The translations under genes and the position numbers were made by a program. Shown piece by piece: positions 53,806 through 63,655 of a DNA stretch of 64,000 bases. How positions within the stretch are numbered: the stretch's first letter is position 1; each line of letters starts with the position of its first letter. Under the pieces are notes generated by a model. That model did not search any database. It was not told the DNA's origin and saw nothing but the letters and a program-made list of their open reading frames with translations. The stretch is from Gemmatimonadales bacterium (GTDB lineage: Bacteria > Gemmatimonadota > Gemmatimonadetes > Gemmatimonadales > GWC2-71-9), in assembly GCA_025934955.1 (NCBI GenBank), contig JAICWE010000001.1:62001-126000 (forward strand), given 5' to 3'.

Positions 53806-54384
53806 ATGAGAACCCACGGCATCGGAGCGGCGACGCTGGAGCGAGAGCACGGCATCGAGCAGGTCGAATCGGAAGCGGCGGACGTCGCCCTCGCCACCAG
53901 CGGGGACCCGCACGCCTTCGAGCGGCTCTACCGCGCCCACGTCGCCCGGATCCACAGTCTGGTGCGGCGGATGCTGACCGAGGATGACGCCGAAGAGGTC
54001 ACGCAGGACGTCTTCGTTCGCGCGTGGCAGAAGCTCACGACGTTTCGGGGCGAGTCGGCGTTCGGCACCTGGCTGCACCGGCTCGCGGTCAACGTGGTCC
54101 TCGCCCGACGTCAGGCGCTCGGCACCCGGCGGGGACGCTACCACGCCGACGACAGCCCGCTGGCCGCGGTGCCGACCCCGCGACGGAAGCACCTCGAGCT
54201 GTCGGTGGACTTCGAGACCGCGCTCGACCGGCTGCCGGACGGCGCCAGAGAGGTGTTCGTGCTGCACGACGTCGAAGGCTACCGGCACGAGGAAATCGCC
54301 GACATGCTCGGCGTCGCTACCGGGACCACCAAGTCGCAACTGCACCGGGCGCGCATGGCGCTCCGGGTTCATCTGGAGCGATAG
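53806..54384 (+). CDS. ECF sigma factor (sigma-E/RpoE-like)
   Basis: A 192-residue extracytoplasmic-function sigma factor. Region 2 covers [38 protein letters not shown] and [18 protein letters not shown]; region 4 covers [44 protein letters not shown]. The N-terminal ~30 residues are extra. It is divergent from hutU and is followed two bases on by a gene for a zinc-finger membrane anti-sigma factor, so it should be released by an envelope signal. The ATG at 53806 fits the frame; no ribosome-binding site is obvious. Confidence 0.93.
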
Positions 54385-54386
54385 CG

Positions 54387-55067
54387 ATGACACACGGCGC
54401 GACGCGCGATCCCTGGACCGACCGGCTCTCCGAATACCTCGACGACGAGCTGCCCGACGGCGAGCGCCGCCGGCTCGAGGCGCACCTCGCCGGCTGCGCC
54501 GATTGCACCGGTGTCCTCGATGAACTGCGTTGGGTGGTAGGCCGGGCCCGTGCCCTGGACGATCGCCCGCCCGCCAGCGATCTGTGGCCCGGCATCGCGG
54601 CGAAGATCGGCGCGCCCGCCGCCCGGCGCCGGCTGCTGTTCTCGGTTCCGCAGCTGCTTGCGGCCGGCATCGCGCTCATGCTCCTGTCCGGTGGGATGGT
54701 CTGGACGCTGCTCCATCGTCAGGCGGCGACGATGCAGGTCGCGGCGCATCCGCCGGTCGCCGCACCGGGAGCGCCGACCGTCGTTCCCGTCGGTCTCGGC
54801 GGCGTGGACTCGGCGACGCAGACGTATGATCGTGCGGTCGCCGATCTCCAGACCGTGCTGACCCAGGGACGGGGCCGGCTCGACACCGCCACCGTCAGGG
54901 TGCTGGAGAAGAACCTCAAGCTGATCGACCGCGCCATCGCCGATGCGCGCGCCGCCGTCCGGGCCGATCCGGCCAGCGCCTATCTCAACCAGTATCTCAT
55001 GCGGACGATGCAGCGGAAGATGGAACTGCTGCGGAACGCCGCCGTTCTCGTTTCGGCTCAGAGCTGA
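54387..55067 (+). CDS. Anti-sigma factor with zf-HC2 domain
   Basis: A 226-residue single-span membrane protein. The N-terminal zinc-binding anti-sigma domain has the H-x3-C-x2-C motif in RLEAHLAGCADC. A membrane span (about 90-110, LLAAGIALMLLSGGMVWTL) is followed by a periplasmic helix-rich part (from AVADLQTVLTQGRGRL on) that could sense the envelope state. It starts two bases after the ECF sigma stop and precedes the DUF4097 genes, so the four form one unit. No protease site can be read. Confidence 0.9.
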   Translation: MTHGATRDPWTDRLSEYLDDELPDGERRRLEAHLAGCADCTGVLDELRWVVGRARALDDRPPASDLWPGIAAKIGAPAARRRLLFSVPQLLAAGIALMLLSGGMVWTLLHRQAATMQVAAHPPVAAPGAPTVVPVGLGGVDSATQTYDRAVADLQTVLTQGRGRLDTATVRVLEKNLKLIDRAIADARAAVRADPASAYLNQYLMRTMQRKMELLRNAAVLVSAQS

Positions 55068-55078
55068 AAGGACCGATC

Positions 55079-55939
55079 GTGCTCCTCGCACTCACGCTCG
55101 CCGCGCTCCTCGCTTCCGGGCCGGACACCACCGTCGCCGTGCAGAAGGGCCAGCGGCTCGAGCTCGGCGTGCATCACGGCGACGTCACCGTGCAGACCTG
55201 GAGCCGCAGCGCCGTCCGGGTACAGCTCGACGCCGACGAGGACGACGCCCGGGTCCGGATCGACGCCTCCGGCGGAACCGTCTCGCTCGGCGCCGTCGGC
55301 CGTTGGGGCGCGCCGGTTCAGGCGGACTTCACCATCACGGTGCCGACCTGGATGGCGCTCGCCATCAACGGCGTCGAGAGCGACGTGAAGGTGGACGGCG
55401 TGCAGGCCCCCATCGCGGTGGAGACCGTGAACGGCGACGTGACGGTGCACGGCGGCGACGGCGTGGTGACCCTGCACTCGGTCGAGGGCGACGTGGCGCT
55501 GACCGGGGCGCGGGGTCGGATGGACGTCCAGTCGGTCAACTCCGACGTGAGCGTGAGCGACGCTCAGGGCGACATCGCCGCGCAGTCGGTCAACGGCTCG
55601 GTGCAGTTGGTCGGGATTCAGTCGCAGAACGTGGACGCGAGCAGCGTGAACGGCGACATCACTTACCGCGGCACGGTGCAGAGCGGCGGGCGCTATCACG
55701 TCACCACGCACAACGGCGACATCCGCTTTGGCATGCCGGAAGGCGCCGGCGCCGTGGTCTCGGTCTCCACCTTCCAGGGCGACTTCGAGTCCGGCTTCCC
55801 GGTCACGCTCACCAAGCCTAACGGCAGGAACTTCAGCTTCACCGTCGGCGGCGGCGGGGCGCGGGTCGAGCTGGAGTCGTTCCAGGGCACCATCCGCCTC
55901 GAGCGCCCCGGCTCGGGCGAGAGCCCCCGCCACCGCTGA
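55079..55939 (+). CDS. DUF4097 beta-helix protein, exported (first of two)
   Basis: A 286-residue protein with a short signal peptide and a right-handed beta-helix or beta-stack formed by repeats of the kind VNGDVTV, VEGDVAL, VNSDVSV, VNGSVQL and VNGDITY at about residues 115-205, followed by a HNGDIRFGMP strand and a beta-sandwich end. It belongs to the DUF4097 (putative adhesin) family. It has a GTG start 11 bases after the anti-sigma stop. Being encoded with the ECF sigma, it is probably an envelope product or co-sensor. The function is not established. Confidence 0.85.
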   Translation: MLLALTLAALLASGPDTTVAVQKGQRLELGVHHGDVTVQTWSRSAVRVQLDADEDDARVRIDASGGTVSLGAVGRWGAPVQADFTITVPTWMALAINGVESDVKVDGVQAPIAVETVNGDVTVHGGDGVVTLHSVEGDVALTGARGRMDVQSVNSDVSVSDAQGDIAAQSVNGSVQLVGIQSQNVDASSVNGDITYRGTVQSGGRYHVTTHNGDIRFGMPEGAGAVVSVSTFQGDFESGFPVTLTKPNGRNFSFTVGGGGARVELESFQGTIRLERPGSGESPRHR

Positions 55940-55976
55940 TCGTTCGTTCCCCACCCGCTCACACCCGGAGAGACCG

Positions 55977-56747
55977 ATGCTCGTCCTGCTCTCGCTGGCC
56001 ACCGCGCTGGCGCTCGCGCCGGCCCGCGCCGGCGGCCCCACCGACGACTTTCACTGGCACGGGGTGATCGCGAAGGGTCGCACACTGGAGATCCGCGGCA
56101 TCAACGGCGACGTCATCGCGACCGCCGCGAAGGGCAACGAGGCCGAGGTGAGTGCCACCAAGCGCGCGCGCCACGGCGACCCCGCGAGCGTCGAGATCCG
56201 GGTGGTGCAGGACGAAGGCGGTGTGCTGATCTGCGCGGTGTATCCCGGCTCCCGCGGCGAGAACGGCTGCGACCGGAATCGCCGCGGCTCCCATGACGAC
56301 AACAACGACGTCGAGGTCAACTTCACCGTCGCGGTTCCGCCCGGTGTGAAGTTCGTCGGCGGGACGGTGAACGGCGCCGTTCGGGCCACCGGCCTCGATG
56401 CCGATGCCCGCGCCGCCACGGTGAACGGCGACGTGGAGGTCGCCACCCGCGGCACCGCGGAGGCGACCACTGTGAACGGCAGCGTACACGTGGCGATGGG
56501 CCGCGCCGACTGGAGCGGCAGCCTCGACCTCAGCACCGTGAACGGCGACATCACCGTGGACCTTCCAGCCGGCCCGAGCATGGAGGTCCGCGCCAGCACC
56601 ACCAACGGCGATCTCGAATCCGACTTTCCCCTCACCATTCAGGGTCGCTTCGGGCCGCGGCGGCTCACCGGCACCATCGGGCAGGGCGGCCGAACCCTCT
56701 CGCTCGACACCGTGAACGGCAGCATCCATCTCCATCAGGCCCGCTAG
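55977..56747 (+). CDS. DUF4097 beta-helix protein, exported (second of two)
   Basis: A 256-residue protein with signal peptide (to about ARAG) and the same repeat design as its neighbour: INGDVIA, VNGAVRA, VNGDVEV, VNGSVHV, VNGDITV, TNGDLES, VNGSIHL. A CAVYPGSRGENGCDRN insertion may form a disulfide. It differs from the first copy by a longer N-terminal globular part. GGAGA precedes the ATG at 55977. A strong hairpin terminator follows the stop, closing the ECF operon. Confidence 0.85.
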   Translation: MLVLLSLATALALAPARAGGPTDDFHWHGVIAKGRTLEIRGINGDVIATAAKGNEAEVSATKRARHGDPASVEIRVVQDEGGVLICAVYPGSRGENGCDRNRRGSHDDNNDVEVNFTVAVPPGVKFVGGTVNGAVRATGLDADARAATVNGDVEVATRGTAEATTVNGSVHVAMGRADWSGSLDLSTVNGDITVDLPAGPSMEVRASTTNGDLESDFPLTIQGRFGPRRLTGTIGQGGRTLSLDTVNGSIHLHQAR

Positions 56748-57134: not shown

Positions 57135-57725
57135 ATGCATCGGTTCCTGAAGTCCACGGCGGCCAGCCTCGCCTTCGCGGCGCTCGCGGCCGGTACCGCC
57201 CACGCGCAGGCGGGCACCACCTCCAACCTCGCGCAGGTCAACCTGAGTGCGAACAAGCCGGTCGAGCTCGCGGTCGCCATCAACTCCGGCGGCACCCAGA
57301 GCATCGCGACGATGGTGGACGGCGCGCTCAACAACTTCACCGGCGGTCCGGTGGACGTGACCACGTCATGGAACCTGACCGGCGGCACCACGGTCTCGCT
57401 GGTCGGCTGGTTCGCCACGCCGGCATCCGCCATGAGCAACGGCACCACGAACATCGCGTCGGGCCGCCTCCAGGGCTGTCTCAAGGCGTTCGCGAGCTGC
57501 ACCGCGGCCGACTGGGCGCCGTTCACCGGCGCGGCCGTCGGGACCGTCGGAGTCGCCGGCGGGAGCATGACGATCTTTTCGCAGGCCGTCGCCAACCCGC
57601 TCGGTCCGGAGACGCAGAACAGCCTGGTGAACCTGCGCCTCGACCTCACCGGCCTCACCGGCGCGACCGCCGTCTCGGCCGGTGCGTACAGCGGCGTGCT
57701 CAACCTCCGCGCGGTCGTTCAGTAA
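57135..57725 (+). CDS. Secreted subunit-like protein 1 (paralogous triplet)
   Basis: A 196-residue exported protein: signal peptide to about AHA (residue 24), then a single beta-rich domain with no recognised family. It shares with the two following genes a length near 197 residues, an early threonine-rich strand, SLVGWF-like and T-x3-F motifs in the middle, and the C-terminal strand [AG]-[AG]-S-Y-[AS]-G-x-L-x-[LI]-R-A-[VI]-x-Q. This copy alone has two Cys (GCLKAFASC). The ending resembles the last strand of spore-coat-U and fimbrial subunits (GTYTDTVTVT type). First gene of the surface locus, 25 bases ahead of the second. Confidence 0.75.
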   Translation: MHRFLKSTAASLAFAALAAGTAHAQAGTTSNLAQVNLSANKPVELAVAINSGGTQSIATMVDGALNNFTGGPVDVTTSWNLTGGTTVSLVGWFATPASAMSNGTTNIASGRLQGCLKAFASCTAADWAPFTGAAVGTVGVAGGSMTIFSQAVANPLGPETQNSLVNLRLDLTGLTGATAVSAGAYSGVLNLRAVVQ

Positions 57726-57749
57726 GCGCGCGGCGAGCCGAGCGATCCG

Positions 57750-58352
57750 GTGTCGCACTTCCGCCTTCCCGCATTGATTGGCTGCGTTGCCGCGGCGAGC
57801 GTCCTTGTGACGCTCGTCCCGGCACGTGCCGCGGCGCAGGCCGGGACGCTCAGCACGACGCAGATCATCAATCTCGGTGCAACCAAGAGCAGCAAGCTCA
57901 CCTTGACGGTCGTAAGCGGCGCCAATCAGTCCCTCGCCGCGATCAACGACGGCACCACCACGAACTTCCCCACGCCGGTCCAGCTCCAGACCCAGTGGGA
58001 TCTCCAGCCCGGCAAGACCGTGAATGTCGCGCTCGTCGCCTACTTCGTCGCGCCGAGCCAGGCCATGGTTTCCGGCGTCAACGCGATCCCGGCATCGCAG
58101 ATGAAAGGCCGCGTGCCCACCGGCGCGCCGACCACCTTCACGGCGATCACCCAGAACGCGGTGACCGGCGGCGCGCAGACCATCGGTACGCCCGGCGGAA
58201 GCCTGACGCTGTTCTCCGTCGTGGTCAACGGCGTGAACAAGACGGCGACCCGCACCGATAATCTCTTCCTGCAGATCGATCGCACCGGCCAGCCCGGTCT
58301 TCCGGCCGGCAGCTACGCCGGCACGCTGTATCTGCGCGCCATCACGCAGTAA
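57750..58352 (+). CDS. Secreted subunit-like protein 2 (paralogous triplet)
   Basis: A 200-residue exported protein with a signal peptide (VPARAAAQ) and the same layout as its neighbours: a TTQIINLGATKSSKLTLTVV start, VALVAYFVAPSQAM in the middle, RTDNLFLQIDRTGQPGLPAG and the final SYAGTLYLRAITQ. It has no Cys. GTG start 25 bases after the first subunit stop. It resembles the third copy most closely at the C-terminus (LPAGSYAGTLxxRAI). No family is assigned. Confidence 0.75.
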   Translation: MSHFRLPALIGCVAAASVLVTLVPARAAAQAGTLSTTQIINLGATKSSKLTLTVVSGANQSLAAINDGTTTNFPTPVQLQTQWDLQPGKTVNVALVAYFVAPSQAMVSGVNAIPASQMKGRVPTGAPTTFTAITQNAVTGGAQTIGTPGGSLTLFSVVVNGVNKTATRTDNLFLQIDRTGQPGLPAGSYAGTLYLRAITQ

Positions 58353-58461
58353 CGAGCCCCGGTCTCAAGAATGTCCTTCCCCCGTCCGATGCTTGGCGTA
58401 GATTCGCAGAACGGTCGCCATCCGGGCGGCCGTCGGCACGCCGCATCGTCGTCGAGGGACC

Positions 58462-59058
58462 GTGCTCCGTTCGCCGATCGTCCGTCACCCCTGCGCTCTC
58501 GCGCTCGCCGCCCTGCTTGGCGCCGCCTCGGCGCGGGCGCAGGCGCCGACGCTCTCGGCGCCGCAGACGGTCACGCTGACGGCGTACAAGCCCGCGACTG
58601 CGGCGGTGACGATCGTCTCCGGCGCGACGCAGTCGCTCGCCGGGCCGCTCAGCCCCGGCGCGACGCAGAGCTTCGCCGCGCCGGTCTCTCTGGAAACCAG
58701 TTGGAGTGTGGACCCGGCGGTCACTGCCAATCTCACGTTGGTGGCGTACTTCGACGCACCGGCGGCGGCACTCACCAGCGGTCCGGCGGCCATTCCGTCG
58801 AGCGCGGTACAGGGCCGCGTTGCTACCGGCGCGCCGACCGCATTCGCGAGCTTCAGCCAGGCCCCGGTGGGGCCGGGCGGCGCGACCGTCGGCTCGGCCG
58901 GCGGCACGCTTCGGCTCTTCACCGAATCCATCGGCACGGCGAACGCCGTCGCCACTCGTCGCGATAACCTCGAGCTGCAGCTCGACCTCACCGGCATCCC
59001 GTCGCTTCCGGCCGGCAGCTACGCCGGAACGCTGAACATCCGGGCGATCGTCCAGTGA
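58462..59058 (+). CDS. Secreted subunit-like protein 3 (paralogous triplet)
   Basis: A 198-residue exported protein with signal peptide (ASARAQ) and the shared domain: PQTVTLTAYKPATAAVTIVSG, then TANLTLVAYFDAPAAAL, RRDNLELQLDLTGIPSLPAG and SYAGTLNIRAIVQ. No Cys. It has a GTG start after a 109-base gap that contains TAGATT at 58409, a possible secondary promoter. The next gene encodes a PapD-like chaperone, 26 bases on. Confidence 0.75.
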   Translation: MLRSPIVRHPCALALAALLGAASARAQAPTLSAPQTVTLTAYKPATAAVTIVSGATQSLAGPLSPGATQSFAAPVSLETSWSVDPAVTANLTLVAYFDAPAAALTSGPAAIPSSAVQGRVATGAPTAFASFSQAPVGPGGATVGSAGGTLRLFTESIGTANAVATRRDNLELQLDLTGIPSLPAGSYAGTLNIRAIVQ

Positions 59059-59084
59059 GGAGCCCTTAGCGGAGTCCGTCTCGC

Positions 59085-59816
59085 ATGACCCAGCTCTCGC
59101 CCCGTCGACCCGGTCTGGCGCTGATCCTCAGCGTCGCCGGGCTGTTCATTTCCGGCGCGCTCGCCGCGCAGTCGGTCAGCCCGCCGATCGCCGAGTACAA
59201 GGAGCGGGCGCGCTCGAGCTTCACGCTGAGCAACGCCTCGCTGTTTCCGCTCACGGTGGTGGTCGAGGTCCGCGGCTTCGAGGTGAGCGAGAACGGTGAC
59301 CTCACCGACATTCCGCTGGACACGACGCGCGTCCACGTCCGCCTCTCGGCGACCAGCTTCCGGATCCCGCCGCGCGGCAGCTACACCGTCTTCTACGAGG
59401 CGAGCGCCGACTCGGCGCCGGCGTGGTTCTCCATCCTGAGCGCGCTCTCCGGCGCCCGGAGCCAGAGCGGACTCAACCTCCGCATCCTGCTGCCGCACGT
59501 GGTTTACCTGAATCAGCGGGCGCCGCTCGAGCGGAGCGCCGTCGTGATCCGGAGCGTCCACTCCGACTCGAGTGGCGCGCACGCCGTCGTCGAGCTGGAG
59601 AACACCAGCGACCGGCTTGGCCGGGTGCTCGACCTCTCGGTGCGCGACAGCACCGGGCACTCCGTTCCCGGTGGCGCGTTCCCGCTCTTTCCCCACGCAC
59701 GCCGCCGCGTCACGCTGCCGTGGAACGGCGCGGCGCCGCCGATCCGCGCCGTGGCCAGGTTCGACGGGTTCACCGCCGACTCGCTCTTTCCGCCGGGCGG
59801 AGCCGGCACACGGTGA
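59085..59816 (+). CDS. PapD-like periplasmic chaperone
   Basis: A 243-residue exported protein with a signal peptide ending near LAAQ. Two immunoglobulin-like domains follow. The first has SPPIAEYKERARSSFTLSN, ATSFRIPPRGSYTVFYEA, AWFSILSALSG and GLNLRILLPHVVYL, which follow the order of PapD-type chaperones (edge strand, proline-rich turn and G1 strand with alternating hydrophobics). The second domain (about 150-240) is shorter and diverged. It probably captures the subunits encoded just before it. Its TGA overlaps the GTG of the outer-membrane gene. The PapD family is the best match, but a search would be needed to fix the subfamily. Confidence 0.72.
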   Translation: MTQLSPRRPGLALILSVAGLFISGALAAQSVSPPIAEYKERARSSFTLSNASLFPLTVVVEVRGFEVSENGDLTDIPLDTTRVHVRLSATSFRIPPRGSYTVFYEASADSAPAWFSILSALSGARSQSGLNLRILLPHVVYLNQRAPLERSAVVIRSVHSDSSGAHAVVELENTSDRLGRVLDLSVRDSTGHSVPGGAFPLFPHARRRVTLPWNGAAPPIRAVARFDGFTADSLFPPGGAGTR

Positions 59817-62006
59817 TCGCACCGGCCGGCCTTCGCCGCGCAGCCCGGCGCGCGCTTGCCTCCGCCGCGCTCGCATGCGCCGCCGCCAGCCCTCTCGCGG
59901 CACAGACGGCGGTGGAGCTGCAGGGAGGCGGGTCGTCGCTCTACGACGGTTACGGCATCGCGGCGAACGTCTTCGGGGCCCGCTACGACGGCTGGGTCGG
60001 CCTGAGCTACGTGCACGGGCTGCGCGCCGGCGCGTTCATGCGCACCACGCTTGGCCGGGACACGCTGCGGCTCGGCAATGACGCCATCCTGCTCCGCTTC
60101 CCCACCGACCTCTTCGGCAGCGGCACCAGCGTCCCGGTCCAGGGCGGGAGCTACACGATGGTGCGGCCGCGATTCGCGATCACCGCGTTCGGTGGCGCCA
60201 CCGCCGCAGGCCGCAATAGCGCCTTCTTCTCCGCGCTCCGCGCCGACAAGCCGTTAGGCGCGGTGTTTCTCACCGAGCGGCCGAGCGCCGGCGTGACCTT
60301 CACCAGCTCGGCGCTGCTCGCCGGGTCCAACAGCTTCGCCCAGGGCGCCGAGTGGCGGCCGAATCAGGCCATCACGACCGCGGTCACCGCCGCGGTGACC
60401 AACGGCCACTCGTACTCCGCGTCGAGCTTTCTGCTGCACCTGCCGCGCGTCGATCTGCGGGCCGCGTACGTGTTGAGCCGCGGCGGCTACCGCCGCATTG
60501 ACGCGTTCGTGCCGACCTATGCCGAGCCCGATCGGGAGAATCTGCTGTTGACGGTGCAGCCGCTGGACGGCGTGACCGTGAGCCTCGGGCGGCAGAACTT
60601 CGTGCAGGACACCTCCGACGCGACCGTGGCGACGCACGCCACCGGCAACTCGCTGTCGCTTGGCGGGCAGCTTCGGCGGACGCGACTCTCGGCGGGGCTG
60701 TATGACTCACGCGCGGAGGCGGCGCGAAGCCTGAGCTGGTACGCGGCGGCAGGCCGGCCGGTCTTCTCCTGGCTCGATGCGGAGCTGTTCGTGCTGCAGA
60801 ATCGCCCGCGCGGCGGGCCGATCAGCACCACCCCGGTGATGAACCTGCGCGAGCGATTGAGCCCGCGCATCGGTCTGGTGCAGCAGATCACGATGCTCGA
60901 TCGGCGCCCGCACTTCCAGTTCGGCGGCAGCCTGATCACCTCCGTGGGCGAGTTCGGTGTGGACTACCAGCTGGTGCGCCAGCCGTTCCAGCCGCTCAGC
61001 CCGTTCCGCAGCACCGTCGCGCTCACCGCGCGGCTCCAGCTCGGCCGCTATTCGACCAGCATCGGCACCGTCGTGAAGCCCGACGGTTCGGTGGACTATC
61101 AGGCCTCGGGAAGCACGTTCCTCTATCTCGGCGACTTCGGGGGCGCGCAGCCGCAGCTGATCGGCACTGGCGCGCGACTCGACCACTTTGTCCTGCGCGG
61201 CCACGTCGAGGACGAGCTCGGCGCGCCGGTCGAAGGTGCGGCAATCGACCTCGATGGCGACGTCGCCTATACCGACTCGCAGGGAAACTTCCTGGTGCGC
61301 GCGCCGCGGCCGAAGCGCTACGCGGTGCGCGTGCGGCTCGAGGATTTCCTGCTTCCCGGAACCTGGGAAGTCATCGACGCGCCGGCGCAGGCGCAGGCCG
61401 GAAGCGAGGGACGCGACCAGCCGCTGCAGGTGCGGCTGCGCCGCGTGGTGCCGGTGCCGCCCGCACCGGTTGCACCGGCGGAGCCGGTCCCGTCGGCCGA
61501 CACCGTGCAGGCGCTTCCGTCGCTTTCGACCGAGCCGCTGCCGATGGCGCCGGCACCCGACATCGCTTCGTTCGCCCTGCCGCCGCCTGAACGGCGTGAA
61601 CTTCCTCACCGATCGCGCGGTGATGCTGCCGGAGGCATTCCCGGTGCTGGATTCGATCGCGGCCGAGCTGACGGCGGCGCCGGGCGAGCGAATCGAGGTC
61701 GAAGGGCACACCGATGCGAGCGGCAATGCGGGGCGCAACCTGCTTCTGTCGCGGTCGCGCGCCCAGTCGGTACGGGAGTATCTCGCGCGGCGCGGCATCG
61801 CGCGGAGTCGCCTGTCGGTGCGCGGCTACGGCGCGCTCCGTCCCATCGCGACGAACGACACGCCGGCCGGGCGCGCCGAGAACCGGCGGGTCGAGCTGCG
61901 CCGCCTGGCGCCGGTCGCGCCGAAGCCGGCCGCGACGTCCGCGCGTAAACAAAAGCGGAGCGCAATCACCTCGCGCCCCGCTCCGACCCACCGCTCCCGC
62001 CGCTGA
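59813..62006 (+). CDS. Outer-membrane barrel with OmpA domain, interrupted by a frameshift
   Basis: A gene for about 730 residues if one extra base is ignored. GTG start at 59813 overlaps the chaperone stop. Signal peptide to about ASPLAAQ; a beta-rich barrel-like region to about 455; a carboxypeptidase-regulatory-like beta-sandwich (VRGHVEDELGAPVEGAAIDL..., about 460-520); a Pro/Ala linker; then, after a +1 shift at about 61583-61587 (CCGCCG-C-CTGAAC), an OmpA peptidoglycan-binding domain (NGVNFLTDRAVMLPEAF, IEVEGHTDASGNAGRN, LARRGIARSRLSVRGYG). Without the shift the first frame runs into nonsense to 61948. Removing one C restores LPPLNGVNF. Sequence error, recent mutation or phase variation are all possible. 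It may act as usher or anchor for the subunits. Confidence 0.72.
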
Positions 62007-62026: not shown

Positions 62027-62866
62027 TCACTTCCGGCGGCGCCTCGTGCGCGCCGCGCCCAGCGCGCCCAGGCCCGACGCGATCAGCACCACGGTCGCCG
62101 GCTCCGGCGTCGTGGTCACCGGCGGTAGGATCGGCGGTGTGATGATCGGCGGAGGACCGCCGCCGGGCGGCGTGCCGCCGGGAGGGTTGCCGGCGGGCGG
62201 CGTACCGGCCGGCGGAGTACCGCCCACGTCCGGCGGAAGTCCGAGATCGCTCCCACCACCGCCGCCGGTCAGCGCGAGGAACATCCCGACACCGAGCAGC
62301 GGAATGAACGGCAGCAGCGACCCGTGTGAGCTGTCGCTCGCCACGGCGGCGGCCGGCGGCAGCGGGCCCTCTTCCGCGGGCATCGCGCCAGCACCGGCCG
62401 CGGCGGCATCCGTCGCGGTTGCCGGTGCCGGTGCCGCAGCATCAGGCGCAACGGCTGCCATCGCGACCGGCGACGCCGCCGCGGGCAGCACGAGCGCGGT
62501 ATCGGCAGCGATCACTCCGGTTTCGGCCGGCGGATCGCCTGCGGTGTCGCTGGTGACCGCGGCCATGACTGCCGGACGGCACCGCGGCAGCGCCGCGCGC
62601 GGCGCAGCCTTCGGGCGCACCGCGAGGTGCTTTCGCGGGGCGCGGCGGTGCGGAGCTGCGGCTATGGATGCGGAGGCGGACGGGTGCTTCGTCGCTGCGT
62701 GTCCAAGCGCTGCGGCCGATGGTCGGTGGGCAGCCGGACGGCGGGTGACCACGTGAGCCGACGCAGCCGCCGGACCCGCGCAGACCGAGTCAGAAGGCTG
62801 CTGCCGGGGCTGCTGCCCCAAAGCCGCACCCGCCGCGAAGGCGAGAAGAACCAGTGAACTGAGCAT
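62027..62866 (-). CDS. PEP-CTERM sorted protein
   Basis: A 279-residue protein of low complexity with a signal peptide and a C-terminal PEP-CTERM signal: TPEPATVVLIASGLGALGA followed by ARTRRRRK. The middle is Ala/Pro-rich, with a hydrophobic segment (LLPFIPLLGVGMFLALTG) and a Pro-Gly repeat (GTPPAGTPPAGNPPGG type). Such proteins are cut by an exosortase, none of which is in this window. The ATG at 62866 is preferred, as TATGTT with TG lies 13 bases ahead; an ATG at 62884 is the alternative. It is convergent with the barrel/OmpA gene. Confidence 0.78.
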   Translation of the reverse strand: MLSSLVLLAFAAGAALGQQPRQQPSDSVCAGPAAASAHVVTRRPAAHRPSAAALGHAATKHPSASASIAAAPHRRAPRKHLAVRPKAAPRAALPRCRPAVMAAVTSDTAGDPPAETGVIAADTALVLPAAASPVAMAAVAPDAAAPAPATATDAAAAGAGAMPAEEGPLPPAAAVASDSSHGSLLPFIPLLGVGMFLALTGGGGGSDLGLPPDVGGTPPAGTPPAGNPPGGTPPGGGPPPIITPPILPPVTTTPEPATVVLIASGLGALGAARTRRRRK

Positions 62867-62983
62867 TTGGAAGGGGACAAACATACAGGAATTGCGCGGC
62901 TCCCGGAATAGGGCCGCGCAATTCCCCGCAGCGCCGTGCGTTAGGACGGGTCGGCGTCAAATTTTCATACGCCCGCAGCAGCC

Positions 62984-63655
62984 TTACTGCGCCGATGCAA
63001 CCGAGCCGGCGGCTCCGCCGGCGTAGTCCACGACGAGCGCAGCTCGCCGATTCTCGACGCCACTGTCGCCCGGCCCCTTGGCACCGGGCACGACCTGCCG
63101 CGGCCGGGCTTCGCCATAGCTCACCGCGCGCAGCTTGTCGGCCGGGAGACCCGCCGTCGTGCTCAGGTACTCCCGCACGGCATCCGCGCGGCGCTGGCCG
63201 AGGCGCCGATTGTAGCGGGTGCTGCCCGCCGGGTCGGTAAAGCCTTCGACGGTGACCAGCGCGTCGGCGTAGTACTCCTTCACCACCGACGCGAAGCGGT
63301 CGAGCACCGCGCGATCGGAGTCGCGCACCTCAGCCCTGGCGAAATCGAAATGGACCGGTACGTCGAACCTGATCGCGCCCTTCATCCGCTCGATACTGAC
63401 GTTGTAGTCCTTGTGGAACTGCTGCAGGTCCTGCTCCAGTGCGGCGAGCCGGCGGTCGTGATCGGCAACGCGGGTGCCGGTCGAGTCGAGCCGCGTCGCC
63501 AGCACCCGGTCGCCGGTCTGCATCTGGTCACGGAGTCGCGCGACCTCCGCGTCGAAATCCTTGCGCGTCACCTTCGCCGCGCAGCCCGTCAGGCCCGCCG
63601 CGGCGAGCGCCAATGCCGCGCACGCCGCGCGCGACCGCATCCACGGTGCGAACAT
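62984..63655 (-). CDS. OmpA/Pal-family lipoprotein
   Basis: A 223-residue lipoprotein with lipobox LTGC near Cys25, a predicted coiled coil (about 30-90, DFDAEVARLRDQMQTGD and RRLAALEQDLQQFHKD) and a C-terminal OmpA peptidoglycan-binding domain: VPVHFDFARAEVRDSDRAVLDRF, VTVEGFTDPAGSTRYNRRLGQRRADAVREYL, and the NRRAALVV end. It tethers the outer membrane to the wall, as Pal does. GGAGGAG is just ahead of the ATG. It is transcribed away from the plus-strand gene at 63784. Confidence 0.93.
   Translation of the reverse strand: MFAPWMRSRAACAALALAAAGLTGCAAKVTRKDFDAEVARLRDQMQTGDRVLATRLDSTGTRVADHDRRLAALEQDLQQFHKDYNVSIERMKGAIRFDVPVHFDFARAEVRDSDRAVLDRFASVVKEYYADALVTVEGFTDPAGSTRYNRRLGQRRADAVREYLSTTAGLPADKLRAVSYGEARPRQVVPGAKGPGDSGVENRRAALVVDYAGGAAGSVASAQ

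Follow-up and report, generated by a model that had tools for sequence, protein, structure and literature searches.

A conserved subunit-chaperone-barrel locus of Gemmatimonadales, probably a divergent chaperone-usher-like system

Introduction

The usher of the classical chaperone-usher pathway has five domains; its N-terminal domain recruits chaperone-subunit complexes, and its plug gates the pore (PMC8410936). Chaperones of these pathways share an invariant proline in D1 and a carboxylate anchor, which is Arg/Tyr/Arg in the non-classical and Arg/Lys in the classical pathways (PMC4654587). Archaic chaperone-usher pathways are present in many phyla (PMC9452303).

Here, a locus of Gemmatimonadales encoding three subunits, a chaperone, and an outer-membrane barrel protein was analyzed. 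Read from the ORFs of a 64,000-nt window (the whole stretch of DNA analyzed, to which all unprefixed coordinates refer), it runs in a single direction from 57135 to 61589. Like the archaic and alternative pathways (CsuC/CsuA-B, EcpB, and CfaA; PMC4654587, PMC9452303), it has a chaperone with a predicted two-domain PapD-like fold, small secreted beta subunits whose N-terminal segment alternates, and the same gene order; unlike them, it gives no sequence-profile match, and its barrel protein lacks an N-terminal domain and a plug. With the classical FimC/FimD/FimA and PapC/PapD systems it shares structural likeness, FimD and PapC being the top matches of the barrel and FimC and PapD being among those of the chaperone, whereas its barrel is followed by one C-terminal domain and hhalign comparisons are at noise level. 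Full-text searches of open literature brought up no paper on a locus of this kind in Gemmatimonadota.

Results

All genes of the locus lie on the + strand and are closely spaced or overlapping, in agreement with the sequence-only reading. The three subunit genes, sub1 (57135 to 57725; 196 amino acids), sub2 (57750 to 58352; 200 amino acids), and sub3 (58462 to 59058; 198 amino acids), the latter two with GTG starts, encode predicted secreted Ig-like proteins. They are followed by the gene for the 243-residue periplasmic chaperone (59085 to 59816) and then by the barrel gene (59813 to 61589), whose GTG start at 59813 has a 4-base overlap (GTGA) with the stop of the chaperone gene. The subunits and the chaperone each begin with a signal-peptide-like segment ending in A-Q.

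Conservation of the locus in related genomes, proposed earlier as a check, bore out the idea of a unit. The subunits were found in 14 of 395 Gemmatimonadota genomes, the chaperone in the same 14, and the barrel in 13; in the 14th genome, the contig ends beside the chaperone. These 14 distinct loci share an invariant gene order (one or more subunits, then the chaperone, then the barrel), which is the chaperone-usher-like order that had been noted in the window. Joint occurrence of the three families is far above chance, and they form an obligately linked, co-inherited unit. The range known so far comprises a small set of soil bacteria in two families of Gemmatimonadales, and a scan of viral contigs found no relative.

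The subunits are paralogues, as the sequence-only reading had proposed: sub2 and sub3 are 50 to 52% identical, sub1 is ∼38% identical to the other two, and all three share a C-terminal strand with the pattern G-x-Y-x-G-x-L-x-x-R-A-x-x-Q. The top match of the subunit profile in the genome was sub2 (E = 2.5e-73). Searches of Pfam and NCBIfam gave only sub-threshold chance matches, placing the subunits in no curated family; the subunit profile gave chance matches only against all PDB sequences, and hhalign comparisons with eleven pilins were close to reversed-sequence controls. A strictly alternating V-x-L-x-A was present in the N-terminal segment of all 23 aligned paralogues. In the predicted structure of the sub3 homologue from locus L011 (pLDDT mostly 83 to 96), the core was modeled at high confidence with no missing strand evident, and the last predicted strand was the C-terminal one; the C-terminal end falls at the same alignment column in all aligned paralogues. 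The N terminus was disordered, with the alternating segment lying outside the core fold, and such a disordered, alternating start fits what a donor strand should look like.

For the chaperone, the structure model was an AF2 read-through fusion of subunit and chaperone from the L011 homologue, and the whole fusion served as the Foldseek query. Two fusion alignments were dropped because MAFFT had shifted the last strand of the subunit or its extension onto the chaperone; a third was clean. The chaperone part filled the resulting Foldseek list, with matches to CupB2 (1.4e-5), Caf1M (2.1e-4), and CsuC (3.0e-4) and further fold matches to YadV, PapD, EcpB, FimC, and CfaA. VIA likewise returned chaperone-usher chaperones, with Z values of 7.3 to 8.2 over residues 208 to 415. 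As modeled from the L011 homologue, the chaperone is a two-Ig-domain PapD-like fold, which agrees with the earlier assignment. Both folds of the fusion were confident separately, but pTM was only 0.44 and their packing was not confident. None of 10 chaperone family members matched Pfam, and NCBIfam gave no match either, sub-threshold chance matches aside, leaving the chaperone outside all curated families; against all PDB sequences the chaperone profile gave chance matches only, and hhalign with eight K-12 chaperones was close to reversed-sequence controls. By eye, the D1 proline was not obvious in LSxMSFRIPPR, and the known invariant chaperone residues, the Arg/Tyr/Arg carboxylate anchor among them, were not located. 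The chaperone strand GLNVRILLPHVV is a putative candidate for the subunit groove.

The barrel protein comprises a signal peptide (∼59813 to 59902), the barrel (∼59909 to 61117), a C-terminal domain (∼61187 to 61447), and a Pro/Ala-rich linker, as delineated from the reading frame, a CarboxypepD_reg match, AF2 strands, and the Foldseek results. The CarboxypepD_reg domain, to which the barrel had been described as joined, was found in the window and in 10 of 10 homologues. The AF2 model, of low confidence (pLDDT 54), has 25 predicted strand segments, for a barrel of ∼24 strands, and an Ig-like C-terminal domain. Of 679 Foldseek PDB matches, the eight best were all FimD or PapC (E = 3.7e-8 to 7.4e-5); these usher matches covered both the barrel and the C-terminal domain and ranked ahead of LptD and porins by about three orders of magnitude. 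In structural comparison, 395 residues were aligned to FimD residues 138 to 751; TM-scores to ushers were 0.25 to 0.42, and in the VIA ranking ushers came below TonB receptors, TOM40, and porins. The C-terminal domain of CS1 ushers, CooC_C, weakly matched one barrel homologue (E = 0.002).

Several usher parts are absent. The first predicted strands begin within ∼17 residues of the mature start, which leaves no usher N-terminal domain; predicted barrel strands are separated by 18 residues at most, which leaves no plug; and model and profile search gave a single Ig/CarboxypepD_reg-like domain and no second C-terminal beta domain. Searches with usher and PapD profiles, suggested by the sequence-only reading, gave no profile match for barrel or chaperone, the Usher profile PF00577 matching neither the genome nor 10 barrel homologues. 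Comparisons of the barrel with seven ushers by hhalign were at noise level, close to reversed-sequence controls, and its profile gave chance matches only against all PDB sequences. The earlier view of a barrel without recognizable plug or usher domains thus stands for the plug and N-terminal domain; the Foldseek lead of FimD and PapC suggests that the modeled barrel is probably not unrelated to ushers.

The same view had joined the barrel to an OmpA anchor, which does not hold in the window. The peptidoglycan-binding OmpA domain (PF00691, E = 8e-21; domain match 61602 to 61886 within 61590 to 62006, + strand) lies in a different reading frame from the barrel. The frame favored by codon-preference scores is that of the barrel up to a point between ∼61,575 and 61,600 on the + strand, in a CTGCCGCCGCC stretch, and the +1 frame thereafter, placing the break near 61590; past the shift, the barrel frame is merely open until a stop ending at 61948. 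A single frame of 704 amino acids with barrel, CarboxypepD_reg, and OmpA was found in G012 (L014:4832-6946), the only exception among the barrel proteins read out, all others of which end without OmpA. The OmpA domain is accessory and not a core part of the system. Programmed frameshifting, weighed as a possible link from barrel to OmpA, is unsupported, since the OmpA part occurs in one relative only and is in frame there.

DUF4402-type loci of the same order (L014:9798-13774) also consist of a secreted beta protein, a chaperone-like protein, and an usher-like protein. Their usher-like protein resembles the barrel protein in having C-terminal domains of the CarboxypepD_reg/SdrD_B kind and in a weak profile similarity, but it has 860 amino acids and, by eye, a plug-like stretch, and it belongs to a much more widespread family (34 of 101 genomes). 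Comparison of the two by hhalign gave 44% for part of the barrel in one setting and 4 to 8% for the barrel alone, values that are suggestive only; controls with TonB receptors gave 1 to 2%, and LptD as a control family was not detectable in this order. The DUF4402-type chaperone and subunit have no detectable similarity to those described here.

Discussion

These results suggest, with a probability of roughly 0.7, that the locus encodes a divergent chaperone-usher-like system, which has a reduced usher and builds surface fibers or adhesin chains and exports them. We infer that it works by donor-strand complementation and secretion. Judging by their signal peptides, the subunits would reach the periplasm by Sec. 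Each would have an Ig-like fold ending in the C-terminal strand, seemingly without the last (G) strand, and the two-Ig-domain chaperone, whose fold like that of the subunit is predicted, may hold it in a complex through an exposed G1-like strand. The free N-terminal V-x-L-x-A of the next subunit, alternating and disordered, could then displace the chaperone strand and build a head-to-tail chain, which would exit through the ∼24-stranded usher-like barrel. Because sequence and model reveal no N-terminal domain, recruitment might, speculatively, fall to the single C-terminal domain; because they reveal no plug, loops or substrate might close the pore. Where fused to the barrel protein, the OmpA domain would tie it to peptidoglycan.

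Given a donor-strand chaperone and its subunits, the barrel might still be an unrelated outer-membrane protein recruited as pore or anchor, its likeness to ushers (a large barrel together with a single beta domain in the periplasm) being convergent. The missing N-terminal domain and plug, the lack of sequence similarity to FimD-type ushers, and the VIA ranking of other barrels above ushers would fit such recruitment. We consider it unlikely: the Foldseek lead of ushers, about a thousandfold and spanning barrel and C-terminal domain, argues against it, as do the weak CooC_C match and the weak similarity to the DUF4402-type usher-like family.

Among the Foldseek matches of the subunit-chaperone model, a WxL-interacting protein ranked first (5.0e-6). 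WxL/WxL-interacting protein pairs form a Gram-positive surface system without an outer-membrane channel, and by that comparison the small proteins could be complete, non-polymerizing folds (secreted adhesins or barrel accessories), with a chaperone-like partner and the barrel as a display platform. The confident subunit core with no evident missing strand points the same way; however, many chaperone-usher chaperones match too, and the conserved alternating segment outside the core, the fixed C terminus, and the chaperone-usher gene order make this quite improbable. An outer-membrane exchange or contact system like TraAB, with a barrel and OmpA protein and a partner adhesin, would account for the match of the NCBIfam TraB model to the OmpA part (1e-27), but that match is confined to a domain that is out of frame here and, among the other barrel proteins read out, present only in that of G012, and the barrel itself matches no such family (NCBIfam; Pfam on homologues). 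Since OmpA is absent from most loci, this explanation is largely refuted and retains only a very small probability.

The sequence-only reading had raised the possibility of an undescribed chaperone-subunit-outer-membrane system. What persists of it is a conserved unit whose subunits and chaperone belong to no curated family; the OmpA domain drops out as a core part, and the barrel is probably not unrelated to ushers. Going beyond the divergent chaperone-usher-like reading, it is tentatively suggested, at somewhat less than even odds, that the locus represents a separate chaperone-usher-type class, in which a barrel without N-terminal domain or plug and with one C-terminal domain assembles and exports donor-strand-linked fibers, possibly near a minimal or ancestral form. 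A natural system that retains subunits, chaperone, and a large barrel but has neither N-terminal domain nor plug would reveal which parts of the chaperone-usher machine are indispensable, and chaperone-usher-type assembly would extend to lineages in which sequence profiles detect nothing.

Results

The block consists of three genes for secreted Ig-like subunits, sub1 (57135-57725), sub2 (57750-58352) and sub3 (58462-59058), a chaperone gene (59085-59816) and a barrel gene that starts at GTG 59813, within a 3.05-Mb draft genome of 110 contigs. All are on the + strand, with gaps of 24, 109 and 26 bases from sub1 through the chaperone gene and a 4-base overlap between the chaperone and barrel genes. 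Pairwise identity among the subunits is about 38 to 52%. The sequence-only reading of three paralogous subunits in a tightly packed, same-strand locus was upheld. Upstream (53806-56747) are genes for an ECF sigma factor, an anti-sigma-like protein of the zf-HC2 type and a pair of DUF4097 proteins. A gene convergent to the block (62027-62884, -) codes for a protein in which a PEP-CTERM motif is matched (E 9e-5); next comes an OmpA lipoprotein-like gene (62984-63655, -).

The block is real and conserved. The chaperone had 8 matches in 81 genomes, and a scan of 84,980 species genomes, which detects close relatives only and leaves room for distant homologues elsewhere, returned 4 loci, all from Gemmatimonadales or Gemmatimonadetes; all named relatives are MAGs of these groups. 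In a profile scan of 395 Gemmatimonadota genomes, subunits and chaperone were found in the same 14 genomes and a full-length barrel in 13, all confined to two families (f1 and f2) of one order. In the barrel-less genome, the chaperone (contig positions 338-955) is near the contig edge and the subunits are on the opposite side, so the expected barrel position falls beyond the contig end. The order subunit(s), chaperone, barrel was present in 14/14 loci read, with one to four subunits per locus; conservation in related genomes, one of the checks that had been proposed, was obtained. In relative G012, the third subunit (locus L014; G012:C83:12721-13128; 164 aa) is missing a central segment and appears degenerate. 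Several f1 genomes carry the block downstream of the same ECF sigma/zf-HC2/DUF4097 genes, which suggests vertical descent with repeated loss. In several f2 loci (L016, L017, L033, L034, and L036), one or two subunits lie between chaperone and barrel (L016:6402-7052; L017, 6594-7338). The barrel-adjacent subunit ends in Tyr and differs at its N-terminus, where V-x-L-x-A is absent; it may form the tip or act as a terminating subunit.

The chaperone had no Pfam, NCBIfam or PDB-sequence match. The construct folded was a natural read-through from a relative's locus (L011), in which the last subunit and the chaperone share one frame (alignment A8; mean pLDDT, 76.6). The first chaperone domain was modeled at a pLDDT of about 52 to 81 and the second at about 86 to 94. 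The top Foldseek match was a WxL-interacting protein (5.0e-6), followed by the chaperones CupB2, Caf1M, CsuC, YadV, PapD, EcpB, FimC, CfaA, and DraB, with some unrelated Ig-rich proteins interspersed. VIA against these chaperones gave Z scores of 7.3 to 8.2 over about residues 208 to 415, with an rmsd of about 8 to 9 Å, as expected if the interdomain angle differs; many single Ig domains reached these scores or better ones over just the second domain. In a long predicted strand (311-323, GLNLRIILPHVVY), hydrophobic residues alternate as they do in a G1 donor strand. The predicted fold bears out the proposed two-domain PapD-like chaperone. Known non-classical chaperones have an Arg/Tyr/Arg carboxylate anchor in common, and an invariant proline is common to all known chaperones of the pathway (PMC4654587). 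Neither feature was located in the chaperone described here.

In the same model, the subunit core had a pLDDT of mostly 83 to 96 and ended in the C-terminal strand (164-171), and most of the first 15 residues were below 50. Three alternating N-terminal positions (V/I, L/I/M, and A) were hydrophobic in 23/23 aligned paralogues, and the positions between them had 13 to 18% hydrophobics. As modeled, these features look like those of a donor-strand subunit. The placement of subunit relative to chaperone was of low confidence (pTM, 0.44).

The barrel frame encodes, in order, a signal peptide, the barrel, CarboxypepD_reg (PF13620, E 1.4e-7) and, last, a linker rich in Pro and Ala. Previously read as joined to the barrel, the OmpA domain (E 8e-21) is in another frame. 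By codon preference, the barrel frame is favored as far as about 61,575 and, from about 61,600 on, the +1 frame, which places a frame break at 61575-61600, at a CTGCCGCCGCC (CCGCCGCC) stretch; it is either an assembly error or a true mutation. G012 has all three domains in a single 704-aa frame. Barrel proteins of the other relatives read out stop behind the CarboxypepD_reg region or add just a short tail to it, so OmpA is an accessory part.

The AF2 barrel model (five sequences; pLDDT 54, pTM 0.42) had 25 predicted strands within residues 3-405, followed by a beta domain (429-515). The best eight of 679 Foldseek matches were FimD and PapC chains (3.7e-8 to 7.4e-5), followed by LptD and porins. 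With VIA, 395 residues of the model (4-516) aligned to FimD 138-751 (Z 11.2, rmsd 8.5), and many other barrels ranked above FimD; the usher assignment is accordingly based on Foldseek, strand count and context rather than superposition.

Discussion

An usher has five domains: NTD, barrel, plug, CTD1, and CTD2 (PMC8410936). In contrast to FimD/PapC-type ushers, the barrel protein has a single C-terminal domain and, by sequence and model, neither an NTD nor a plug, the largest gap between barrel strands being at most 18 residues. The earlier view of a barrel without recognizable usher parts thus stands for these two domains but probably not for the barrel itself, for which FimD and PapC rank first in Foldseek. 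The C-terminal region of one homologue matches CooC_C, the CS1 usher C-terminal domain (E 0.002). When profiles were compared with those of K-12 chaperones, ushers and pilins, similarity stayed at noise level. Membership in PF00577 was considered; sequence match, NTD and plug were all lacking, and the barrel was therefore kept out of that family.

The barrel has a weak similarity, dependent on the alignment, to a DUF4402-associated usher-like family of this order. In G012, such a locus adjoins the block (L014:9798-13774). It encodes a DUF4402 subunit, a chaperone-like protein and a usher-like protein of 860 aa, which carries SdrD_B and CarboxypepD_reg domains and has no match to the Pfam Usher profile. 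Related proteins occur in 34/101 genomes of the order.

We found no published description of the block. The analysis establishes conservation, gene linkage, predicted folds and, from sequence and model, the lack of an NTD and a plug; the most likely reading is a reduced, very divergent chaperone-usher-like assembly system. Donor-strand exchange between subunits, export through the barrel and a mode of pore gating would be its putative steps, and surface fibres its presumed product. Most likely, then, the block functions like a chaperone-usher pathway.
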